In this document: positions 4,539 through 7,912 of the stretch, piece after piece | Layout: each line of letters opens with the position of its first letter | How positions within the stretch are numbered: the stretch's first letter is position 1 | From: Leptolyngbya sp. PCC 6406 | GTDB lineage: Bacteria; Cyanobacteriota; Cyanobacteriia; Phormidesmidales; Phormidesmidaceae | DNA: 64,000 nt | Direction: 5' to 3' | Assembly: GCF_000332095.2 (NCBI RefSeq) | Contig: NZ_KI913949.1 | Span: 1,086,291-1,150,290 of the forward strand | Program-made: the position numbers and the translations under genes | Notes under the pieces: generated by a model | The model's database searches: none | What the model was told of the DNA's origin: nothing | Seen by the model: only the letters and a program-made list of their open reading frames with translations

Positions 4539-4976
4539 ATGCCTCCCCCCCCTACCTTCCGGGATGGAATCGCCCAGTTTAATCAAGGTGAGTTCTACGA
4601 TTGCCATGACACCCTAGAGGCGATTTGGATGACGGCGGATATCCCTGACAAGCCTTTTTACCAGGGTATTTTACAAATCGCTGTGGCTCTCTATCACCTG
4701 AGTAATCACAATTGGCGAGGGGCGGCAATTCTTTTTGGGGAGGGCAGTCGCCGTCTAGAACCCTACGAACCAACCTATTACGGTATCAATGTCACAGATC
4801 TGCTGGATCGGGCGGCGGAGTGGTTAATCGCCCTTCAAGAGTTGGGACCGGAGCAGGTGGCACAGGTGGCTACGGCATTAATCCCGCCTCAGGCCCCTGA
4901 GATGCTCTCTGAAGCAGACTCCAGTCCTAGGGCAGTTGCCTTACAACTCCCGTCGCCTCAGATTTTGCCGAGTTGA
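4539..4976 (+). CDS. DUF309 domain protein
   Basis: A 145-residue protein of the DUF309 family, whose function is unknown. The family core is visible: FNQGEFYDCHDTLEAIW near residues 13-29 (conserved H and E in a short helix), FYQGILQIAVALYH near 38-52, then a helix with RGAAILFGEG and RRLEPYEP. The last 40 residues are Pro/Ala-rich and not part of the domain. The first ATG falls inside a CACACCC tract and no clear ribosome site is seen, so the start is tentative. It stands alone between divergent glmM and a convergent regulator gene. Confidence 0.82.
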   Translation: MPPPPTFRDGIAQFNQGEFYDCHDTLEAIWMTADIPDKPFYQGILQIAVALYHLSNHNWRGAAILFGEGSRRLEPYEPTYYGINVTDLLDRAAEWLIALQELGPEQVAQVATALIPPQAPEMLSEADSSPRAVALQLPSPQILPS

Positions 4977-5265: not shown

Positions 5266-6531
5266 TTAGATTCCCCCAGAAGTGGGGGGCGGAGCTGAGG
5301 GCGGGGAGGTGGGTTTGCGATCCAAACGAATTGCTTGCTCTAGGGCAATCTTCTCTCTGGCCCGATCGGCATAGGGCTGAAGTTGCTCCAGGGATTGCCC
5401 GGTGAGAAGGGTGAGATTTTCCAAGCTGATGCCTCGCATGAGCATGTCGATACACCAGGTTTGGTGGGCCTGGATTAGTTTGGGGGGCTGCCCTTCGGGG
5501 GTACGGAGTCCTTCAGTCCAACGTTGCCAATGGTGCTGCACCGTAGTCAGGGTGAGGGGGGTATCGGTCTCGTCTAGAAATAGGGCAGGCAGATCGTCTT
5601 TACGGGTTTTGAGCCACTTGGTCAGGGGATTGTTTTTGGGTGTACCGTAGCGCTTTCCGCCAATCCACTGGTTGATAGCGACTTGGCGACGGCCCTGGGG
5701 GCTGCTCAGGCGTAACAGTTGTTGTTGGGGCTCGCTGCTGTGATGAATCCGTTGCAGATAAACGACCTCTGTGGGGAATAGGCCCGCGCCTAGGATGCCA
5801 TAGGCGAGGGCATAGTCTTGGGGGCTGGCTTTGCGGGCTGATTGGAGAATGGTCTGCACCAGGGAGGGGGGTAGGTCCATTACGGTTGTAGCGGGGGTAT
5901 CAGTGGCAGGGGCAATAGGGATGGGGAGTCTCAGGGCGGTGATGGGCTGGGGTCTCAAAAAGAGCTGGGTCACGGTGTCTATGAATTGGTCTTGGTGAGG
6001 CCAGAGTTGATGGGCTTCACTGGTGCATTCAATAACGGCGTAGCCCAACAGTAGACAGTGGAGGAGGGCCGCAAACTGGTCGGGGGACAGAGGCGGGGCT
6101 AGATCGGCATCTGCGATCGCGGGGGCAAAATATTCCGCCACACTACGGGTAGCCTGGGTCAGGCATTGCCCGATGGCCCGCCGATTTTCGGGTGGATATT
6201 GGTCTGCCTCACCGATCAGGGAGCGTACCAGTTCCGGCACCTGACCCAACAGGCGGAGATTGGCCTGGACATAGGCCGAAAAGCTCTGGGCTAGATCAGT
6301 ACTGGGCGGCAGCGATCGCCGTAGGGTTTCTGGCAATTCAGCAAAGAGGGGAGATTCCTCAATCACTGTCAGCAATAGACCGTACTTGTTGCCAAAGTTG
6401 CGAAACAGCGTGACCTCGTTCACCCCCGCCAAGTTGGCGATTTGGCGCGTGGTGGTATTGCTAATTCCCTGGGACACAAATAGGTCTAGGGCAGCTTGGA
6501 TTAAGCGATCGCGGGTGGAGGGAGAGGTCAT
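5266..6531 (-). CDS. TetR-family regulator fused to a degenerate tyrosine-recombinase-like domain
   Basis: A 421-residue protein. Residues 1-60 are a TetR helix-turn-helix (TTRQIANLAGVNEVTLFRNF), followed by a helical ligand-domain-like region to about 200. The C-terminal half is unusual. GILGAGLFPTEVVYLQRIHH looks like the GLRxSEL region of tyrosine recombinases, and MLMRGISLENLTLLTGQS ... PY resembles the LLxxGxxLxxIxxLLGHS ... Y block. The catalytic Arg of GLR is replaced, the HxLRH site reads roughly LIQAHQ, and GHS is GQS, so recombinase activity is unlikely. It probably serves as a DNA- or partner-binding module. It is divergent from desC, whose upstream region carries paired palindromes. 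The TetR call is strong; the second domain is a pattern-based inference. Confidence 0.8.
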   Translation of the reverse strand: MTSPSTRDRLIQAALDLFVSQGISNTTTRQIANLAGVNEVTLFRNFGNKYGLLLTVIEESPLFAELPETLRRSLPPSTDLAQSFSAYVQANLRLLGQVPELVRSLIGEADQYPPENRRAIGQCLTQATRSVAEYFAPAIADADLAPPLSPDQFAALLHCLLLGYAVIECTSEAHQLWPHQDQFIDTVTQLFLRPQPITALRLPIPIAPATDTPATTVMDLPPSLVQTILQSARKASPQDYALAYGILGAGLFPTEVVYLQRIHHSSEPQQQLLRLSSPQGRRQVAINQWIGGKRYGTPKNNPLTKWLKTRKDDLPALFLDETDTPLTLTTVQHHWQRWTEGLRTPEGQPPKLIQAHQTWCIDMLMRGISLENLTLLTGQSLEQLQPYADRAREKIALEQAIRLDRKPTSPPSAPPPTSGGI

Positions 6532-6539
6532 GGGAGGAC

Positions 6540-6668
6540 GGTGGGGGGGTGTGAGGGTATGGGGGTGTGAGGGTGTGGGGGTGTGTTGGCGAAGCCTGCC
6601 CGAAGGGCTTGGGTGTGAGGGTGTGAGGGAATTTTGAGTTTTGAGTTTTGAGTTTTGAGTTTTGAGTT
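6540..6668. repeat. GGGTGTGAGGGTGTGG and TTTTGAG tandem tracts
   Basis: G-rich GGGTGTGAGG units at 6540-6628 are followed by a TTTTGAGT heptamer repeat (five units, 6634-6668). The complementary ACTCAAAAC tract occurs at about 47730-47760 before recF. They lie in the divergent gap between the TetR-like gene and desC. Confidence 0.7.
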
Positions 6669-6681
6669 GAATGTCCCGTAG

Positions 6682-6812
6682 GGTGCATAACGCTAAGGCG
6701 TGGCTTCGCCCACGCGAAGCAATGCACCATCTTCAGTTGGGGTTGGAGGGTGCATAACGCTAAGGCGCGGCTTCGCCTTTTATGTCGCTTGCGCAACGCG
6801 AAGCAATGCACC
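6682..6812. repeat. Two copies of a GGTGCATAACGC/GCAATGCACC hairpin repeat
   Basis: Copies at 6682-6728 and 6749-6812. Each starts GGGTGCATAACGCTAAGGC and ends GCGAAGCAATGCACC, so the ends pair. The second copy has an enlarged loop. A third copy in the other orientation lies at 28263-28309. Confidence 0.7.
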
Positions 6813-6928: not shown

Positions 6929-6999
6929 ATGCAAGTGTCACTTGCATGTTTTGGGAAATACTGTTAGCGTATCGCTATGGATGTAAGTGACACTTGCAT
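6929..6999. promoter_or_regulatory. Paired 19-bp palindromic operators upstream of desC
   Basis: ATGCAAGTGTCACTTGCAT at 6929-6947 is a perfect 9-1-9 palindrome. ATGTAAGTGACACTTGCAT at 6981-6999 is the same site with one mismatch. Their centres are 52 bp apart, about five helical turns, so dimers bound to both would face the same side of the DNA. The second site ends about 37 bp before the preferred desC start. The adjacent divergent TetR-like gene is the obvious candidate to bind here, but that is inference. Confidence 0.65.
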
Positions 7000-7036
7000 C
7001 TCACCATAACAGGCGATGCTAAACAAGGACATTCCT

Positions 7037-7912
7037 ATGATTTCTAGTCCAGCAGGGGCAGCCCTAGCCCCCTACAACACTCAGCCGACCCAGCAGTTTA
7101 GTTGGATTAGCCTCGGTTTTTTTAGTGCGTTTCACCTCATTGCACTAGTGGCCGCCCCCTTCTTCTTCTCTTGGTCAGCCCTGGGGGTTGCCGTCTTGCT
7201 GCACTGGCTATTTGGCGGCATCGGCATTTGTCTGGGTTATCACCGGATGCTTAGTCACCGGAGCTTTCAGGTGCCCCGCTGGCTCGAATATGCGATCGCA
7301 TTTCTCGGCGCTTTATCCATCCAAGGCGGACCTATCTTTTGGGTAGCGGGGCATCGACGGCACCATGCCTTCACAGAAGACGTAGCCGCCGATCCCTACT
7401 CCGCCAAACGGGGATTTTGGTGGAGCCATGTGCTCTGGCTAATCTACCTACAAGCCGATACCTTTGATCAAAAGCGCTACGGCAAATATGCGCCAGACCT
7501 TATGCGCCAACCCTTCTACCGTTGGCTCAACCGCTATTTTCTGCTGCTCCAACTGCCCCTAGCCGCAGGACTCTATGCCCTAGGCGGTTGGTCTTGGGTG
7601 ATCTACGGCATCTTTGTCCGGGCAGTGTTTCTGTGGCACGCCACCTGGTTTGTCAACTCCGCCACCCACCGCTGGGGCTATCGCACCTTTGCCGCCAAAG
7701 ACAATTCCCGCAACCTGTGGTGGGTCTCCCTCCTGACCTACGGAGAAGGCTGGCACAACAACCACCATGCCCATCCCCGTGCCGCCCAGACGGGCTGGCG
7801 CTGGTGGGAAGTGGATGTCACTTGGTGGACCATTCAACTCCTACGGCGGTTAGGCTTAGCGAAACGGGTCGTAGCCATGACGCCCCAGGGCACCACCCGC
7901 ATCCTGAGATAG
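7037..7912 (+). CDS. desC: Acyl-lipid/acyl-CoA delta-9 desaturase (DesC type)
   Basis: Membrane di-iron desaturase that introduces the first double bond into stearoyl chains of membrane lipids. The three histidine boxes are present: HRMLSH, HRRHH and HNNHH, spaced as in cyanobacterial DesC. Hydrophobic segments flank them. I prefer the ATG at 7037 because AAGGA lies 7 bases upstream; an ATG at 7016 gives seven more residues but a poorly spaced ribosome site. The gene is divergent from the TetR-like regulator and preceded by the paired palindromes, suggesting regulation of lipid unsaturation. A strong hairpin terminator lies at 8105-8134. Confidence 0.92.
   Translation: MISSPAGAALAPYNTQPTQQFSWISLGFFSAFHLIALVAAPFFFSWSALGVAVLLHWLFGGIGICLGYHRMLSHRSFQVPRWLEYAIAFLGALSIQGGPIFWVAGHRRHHAFTEDVAADPYSAKRGFWWSHVLWLIYLQADTFDQKRYGKYAPDLMRQPFYRWLNRYFLLLQLPLAAGLYALGGWSWVIYGIFVRAVFLWHATWFVNSATHRWGYRTFAAKDNSRNLWWVSLLTYGEGWHNNHHAHPRAAQTGWRWWEVDVTWWTIQLLRRLGLAKRVVAMTPQGTTRILR

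Follow-up and report, generated by a model that had tools for sequence, protein, structure and literature searches.

A TetR-type regulator fused to a degenerate tyrosine-recombinase domain is a predicted repressor of an adjacent cyanobacterial desaturase gene

Results

Genes and features of the locus

The 64,000-nucleotide stretch of Leptolyngbya sp. PCC 6406 DNA that we analyzed (hereafter the window) carries a gene for a regulator that joins a TetR-type N-terminal half to a degenerate copy of the catalytic domain of tyrosine recombinases. The coding strand of this open reading frame, which an earlier note on the same DNA had left unstated, is the minus strand. A desaturase gene lies on the opposite strand, and the intergenic region between the two genes holds a pair of palindromes (operators A and B) together with a predicted promoter. 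In the list below, residue numbers refer to the 421-amino-acid protein, catalytic positions were mapped by profile alignment, and residue counts are taken from an alignment of 72 homologous sequences.

5266..6531, minus strand: regulator gene, 421 amino acids, TetR N-terminal half plus degenerate tyrosine-recombinase domain
6370..6504, minus strand: TetR_N helix-turn-helix (HTH), residues 10-54 (PF00440, E 5.2e-12)
5317..5877, minus strand: degenerate tyrosine-recombinase catalytic domain, residues 219-405 (profiles, AlphaFold, Foldseek)
5776..5778, minus strand: codon of F252, at the catalytic Arg I position (Arg in 1/72 homologues)
5464..5466, minus strand: codon of H356, at the catalytic Arg II position (Arg 29, Gln 27, Lys 7 and His 5 of 72)
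5395..5397, minus strand: codon of Q379, at the catalytic His/Trp III position (Trp 16/72, His 0/72)
5371..5373, minus strand: codon of Y387, at the nucleophilic Tyr position (Tyr 63, Phe 7 and Leu 2 of 72)
6930..6946, strand not assigned: operator A, perfect palindrome TGCAAGTGTCACTTGCA, one of two genome sites with at most one mismatch
6942..6947, plus strand: TTGCAT within operator A, the predicted -35 element of the desaturase promoter
6962..6970, plus strand: predicted extended -10 element TGT-TAGCGT, 17 bp after the -35 element
6982..6998, strand not assigned: operator B, TGTAAGTGACACTTGCA, one mismatch, just downstream of the -10 element
7016..7912, plus strand: DesC-like fatty acid desaturase gene, the predicted target, with its ATG at 7016 or 7037 (PF00487, E 2.6e-23)

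DesC-type desaturases are understood to introduce the initial double bond of membrane lipids in cyanobacteria. Members of this desaturase family are located directly upstream of the regulator and divergent from it in 85 of 87 loci, with no intervening open reading frame of at least 80 amino acids; the 87 loci include some that are duplicated between two collections and five whose regulator is TetR-only. The exceptions are L004, which is at a contig end, and L055 from genome G013, wherein regulator and then desaturase follow one another on the same strand. This tandem layout recurs in L065 from genome G047, a locus that a length filter had excluded from the 87. Our neighborhood comparison revealed no conserved partner gene other than the desaturase. 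In the window, a DUF309 gene (4539-4976; PF03745, E 1.3e-25) resides between glmM and the regulator. The intergenic gap of the window is 484 bp, compared to 35-44 bp in the nearest relatives (L002 and L003), and it is swollen at positions 6545-6812 by minisatellites of GGGTGTGA and TTTTGAG units and by two copies of a GTGCATAACGCTAAGGCG...GCAATGCACC repeat.

The N-terminal half is a TetR protein

The TetR-like character that the earlier note had assigned to this protein is borne out by the helix-turn-helix at residues 10-54, which scores 45.8 bits against a curated cut-off of 24. This match is followed by a weak Pfam match to a TetR effector domain, and the full-length AlphaFold model (pLDDT 85, pTM 0.51) includes an all-helical effector and dimerization part with helices up to residue 191. 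The linker at approximately residues 197-212 is predicted to be disordered, and the model does not fix the mutual placement of the two halves. When the full-length model is used as a Foldseek query, TetR structures are also matched, among which FadR of Bacillus halodurans ranks first, and FadR-type acyl-CoA regulators are among the top fold matches of the TetR half. These matches are not a specific pointer to an acyl ligand.

The C-terminal half has the fold of a recombinase catalytic domain

Taken alone, the C-terminal half of the window protein yields no Pfam match, and its NCBIfam match to XerA (residues 302-388, E 0.22) is at chance level. At the level of the family, the order of recombinase core elements that the earlier note had perceived is real. 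The Phage_integrase model (PF00589) is matched by 22 of 27 homologous C-terminal domains on their own, with a best E value of 7.8e-10, and the domain of L008 reaches 36.8 bits against the curated cut-off of 27.1. Furthermore, a profile of the C-terminal family aligns with cyanobacterial integrases over 158 columns (hhalign probability 97.7%, E 1.6e-12), whereas the TetR half, used as a control in the same comparison, gives an E value of 0.38. A profile search of PDB sequences (hmmsearch) with the C-terminal family likewise retrieves the archaeal Xer protein 4a8e (E 9.7e-7).

Structure prediction, the check that had been set beforehand, points to the same fold and not to an unrelated one. The AlphaFold model of the recombinase-like domain (207 amino acids) has a pLDDT of 91 and a pTM of 0.84, and all 31 of its Foldseek matches in the PDB at E<=1e-3 are tyrosine recombinases or integrases, including XerA (E 1.9e-7), XerH, Tn1549 Int, lambda Int and Cre. 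The N-terminal core-binding (SAM-like) domain of recombinases is absent from the window protein, where the TetR half and the linker take its place. An ordinary tyrosine integrase domain (G000:C1:1076217-1076654; PF00589, E 2.3e-33) is encoded in the same genome approximately 10 kb before the window.

The catalytic residues are lost

The residue replacements described in the earlier note are found where profile alignment places them, with LFP at the Arg I position (F252), QAHQ at the HxxR motif and GQS in place of GHS (Q379). One refinement is that H356 of the QAHQ sequence is the residue aligned with the second catalytic Arg, and the position of the second His is occupied by I353 (His in 1/72 homologues). 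The catalytic Lys position near G280 holds Lys in 0/72 homologues. The nucleophilic Tyr, which had been singled out as the one residue retained, is indeed present as Y387 and is Tyr in 63 of the 72 sequences.

No member of the family in this alignment carries the full catalytic set. The alignment of homologues, proposed to see if the catalytic residues are lost throughout, shows that the catalytic set is lost across the family: nearly all sequences lack Arg I, Lys and His, and the Arg II position is still Arg in 29 of 72. Judged by these residues, the C-terminal domain appears to be an exapted tyrosine-recombinase catalytic domain that is incapable of cutting DNA.

The domain is maintained, but is nearly neutral in charge

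The recombinase-like domain has a mean pairwise identity of 0.52 and the TetR effector half one of 0.43, and this difference argues that the former is kept by selection; the helix-turn-helix reaches 0.68. Within the dead domain, residues 281-313 have a mean identity of 0.69, on par with the helix-turn-helix. At nine positions, 65 or more of the 72 sequences have a basic residue, and five of these positions (R282, R294, K308, R310 and K311) are within residues 282-311. In contrast to true integrase domains, whose net charge is +4.35 per 100 amino acids, the domain carries only +0.5, which weakens the case for a general grip on DNA. Thus, of the earlier description of a DNA-gripping domain without catalysis, the second part stands with the loss of the catalytic set, while the gripping is called into question by the near-neutral charge and by lineages that do without the domain.

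Distribution of the fusion and of TetR-only versions

We drew homologues from two sources, of which GTDB contigs provided 29 loci, all of them cyanobacterial. The other source was whole genomes of the class: among 194 of these, 154 exhibit some match, in many cases confined to the TetR part. When the query was the C-terminal domain by itself, 38 of 77 genomes were matched, always as the fusion, which occurs as one copy per genome in about half of the sampled cyanobacterial genomes. We encountered no stand-alone or non-TetR version of the domain in the class-wide or phylum-wide genome samples. The fusion occurs across many sampled cyanobacterial families and so is neither recent nor local, nor is it an artefact of assembly. 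Two homologues are irregular: one from a metagenome-assembled genome is cut into two open reading frames by an in-frame stop (L007, 5998-7248), and another (G010:C71:45963-47504) is matched in three pieces that belong to a single 530-amino-acid frame, implying insertions inside the protein.

TetR-only versions are located beside the same desaturase family in L061, L062, L063, L091, L092 and L150-L153, and no remnant of the C-terminal domain is detectable near these genes. The TetR-only loci retain operator A and the promoter, and thus the TetR half suffices to define the operator. Operator B has decayed in the six TetR-only loci of one genus, where a ATGTCAAG-like remnant is found (L061, L062, L091 and L150-L152), but it is kept in L063, L092 and L153, so this operator is not strictly dependent on the domain. 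We had considered the joint loss of operator B and the C-terminal domain as evidence for a connection between them, and dropped it when it failed in these three other loci. By these sequence comparisons, the dead domain would appear to modify the function of the regulator rather than create it.

Paired operators flank a predicted extended -10 promoter

The intergenic regions have in common a 17-bp palindrome, TGCAAGT-N3-ACTTGCA, that occurs in two copies in nearly all loci, mostly 46-49 bp apart from center to center (52 bp in the window, the usual range being 46-52 bp with this value included). In the 5,776,957-bp genome to which the window belongs, no sites other than operators A and B come within one mismatch of the palindrome, and a reversed pattern used as a control has 0 sites at this threshold in the same genome. 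A scan of the window at three mismatches gives 3 matches against 2.9 expected and is uninformative alone. In the tandem genomes G013 and G047, two perfect sites 48 bp apart lie directly before the desaturase gene, between it and the regulator, indicating that the operators travel with the desaturase. Among 28 desaturase upstream regions from 18 genomes that lack the regulator, no site is better than four mismatches, which is the level of shuffled sequence. The genome-wide count and these site-free upstream regions rule out chance palindromes, and the operators and promoter layout appear to depend on the presence of the regulator. The palindrome is conserved in this intergenic position, and a TetR dimer is predicted to bind it.

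Operator A abuts the start codon of the regulator in many loci. Toward the desaturase, its end reads TTGCA and so resembles a -35 element. The pattern TAnnnT follows the TTGCAn of operator A by 16-18 bp in 67 of 71 non-redundant loci, compared to 6.7 expected (maximum 14) when spacers are shuffled. A G is found two bases before this TA in 63 of 64 sequences and a T three bases before it in 54, a placement that identifies a -10 element of the extended type. In the window, the -10 hexamer spans 6965-6970, and operator B begins 12 bases past its end. We had also entertained this inter-operator motif as the -10 element of the regulator itself, for which the spacing does not fit, and as a half-site for the C-terminal domain, which was abandoned because an extended -10 element directed toward the desaturase explains the motif. 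Since the promoter accounts for the inter-operator sequence, no separate site for the C-terminal domain is visible. The arrangement of operator A over the -35 element and operator B past the -10 element has the geometry expected for repression. An element resembling TACTGTAAC (GTTACAGTA on the opposite strand) recurs past operator B in the desaturase 5' region of several loci, for example L035, L038 and L050.

Discussion

A probable local repressor of the adjacent desaturase gene

We consider it probable, at roughly 75%, that this protein acts locally, as a repressor dedicated to the DesC-like desaturase gene next to it. The stronger part of the case lies in the target gene, its operators and the layout of its promoter, none of which figured in the earlier note. 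A TetR-type dimer would bind TGCAAGT-N3-ACTTGCA at two places, and because operator A covers the -35 element and operator B the transcript start, the bound protein would close the extended -10 promoter that the two operators enclose. Autoregulation is also probable: in many genomes operator A abuts the start codon of the regulator, which would then hold down its own synthesis. By analogy with DesT, FabR and MadR, the regulator probably responds to the acyl pool, with acyl-ACP or a lipid as the signal to its TetR core.

The C-terminal domain would most likely either join two operator-bound dimers or lie on the approximately 30 bp of promoter DNA between them. A role as a clamp or bridge between operator-bound dimers is a tentative proposal, to which we assign distinctly less than even odds. 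The distance between the operators ranges from 42 to 60 bp across loci, crossing a helical turn, which disfavors a rigid bridge but is still compatible with a flexible one. At odds that fall slightly short of even, we suggest that a recombinase domain became a functional part of a lipid regulator through an ancient exaptation, which deep-branching cyanobacterial genomes already have, and that it serves as a clamp across the promoter or as a docking site for an acyl carrier or another partner.

Other explanations of the same observations differ greatly in merit. With target and operators unchanged, the recombinase-like domain might make no DNA contact and instead dock or sense another molecule, such as acyl-ACP, RNA polymerase or a protein that serves the desaturase as redox partner. 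We regard this as unlikely, if well worth considering. It would agree with the near-neutral charge, with the greater identity of the whole domain relative to the effector half, and with a segment (residues 281-313) as well conserved as the helix-turn-helix, and XerD binds a protein partner via the corresponding domain (5dcf, XerD with FtsK gamma). The basic stretch R282, R294, K308, R310 and K311 could meet an acidic partner, but it comes after the beta-hairpin with which recombinases contact DNA and so fits a DNA contact equally well; no partner gene other than the desaturase is conserved in the neighborhoods compared. Activation of the desaturase, or activation combined with repression, in the manner of the TetR-type protein FasR is improbable. 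Although TetR-fold activators exist (FasR is annotated as an activator in NCBIfam), the placement of operator A on the -35 element and operator B at the transcript start is the usual geometry of repression.

There is very little to recommend a regulator that mainly controls itself with the desaturase as a bystander: the abutment of operator A on the regulator start in many loci would suit it, but tandem genomes have the operators between the two genes and not before the regulator, and the inter-operator promoter is oriented toward the desaturase. Least credible is a recombinase of a mobile element carrying a TetR domain that is working now or was until recently. The homology to catalytic domains is true and the Tyr is kept in 63 of 72 sequences, but Arg I, Lys and His are absent almost throughout, Arg II and His/Trp III are not maintained, TetR replaces the core-binding domain, and the gene is present once per genome at a fixed place beside a lipid gene. 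The residue counts among the 72 homologues led us to discard this explanation.

Comparison with known systems

Genes for desaturases or for unsaturated fatty acid synthesis are regulated by TetR proteins in other bacteria, namely by DesT in Pseudomonas, FabR in E. coli and MadR in mycobacteria (PMC8872791). They share with the window protein the placement of a TetR protein at a desaturase gene, here with a predicted operator at the desaturase promoter, but they lack a recombinase-like domain. The NCBIfam model for FabR (PRK11202) scores 17.1 bits against a cut-off of 151 and that for Bacillus-type FadR 23.4 against 200, and no DesT or MadR model is among the NCBIfam matches of the window protein. 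The protein would work like a desaturase regulator of the DesT/FabR/MadR type, yet by sequence it is not a member of FabR.

In the open-access literature that we searched, where absence is weak evidence, neither a TetR-recombinase fusion nor this operator is described, and we found no dedicated transcriptional repressor of a DesC-type desaturase gene. Our findings offer a concrete regulator, a predicted operator and a promoter layout for a cyanobacterial DesC-like desaturase. If the domain is indeed an exapted clamp or docking module, it would represent a new use of the recombinase fold inside a TetR protein and would supply a missing link in the way cyanobacteria set membrane desaturation.

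With XerA, XerC, XerD, XerH and lambda-type integrases, the C-terminal domain shares the catalytic-domain fold and the order of its elements; it differs from them in its lost catalytic set, missing core-binding domain, near-neutral charge and fusion to TetR. It carries the fold of a recombinase, yet judged by its residues it is not one. A close parallel is MrpR (YopR), the master repressor of the Bacillus prophage SPbeta, which has a recombinase fold and carries out no recombination (PMC10516654). Both are repressors, by prediction in our case, with a tyrosine-recombinase fold that has lost Arg and His and kept Tyr. MrpR differs in that it has the whole fold, with core-binding and catalytic domains, resides in a prophage, is not joined to TetR and retains the Lys (PMC10516654), whereas the protein described here has the catalytic domain alone, fused to TetR and encoded by a chromosomal gene beside a lipid desaturase. 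Besides MrpR, it would thus be a clear case of a recombinase fold that selection has kept after the loss of catalysis, in a regulator of the host and not of a prophage.
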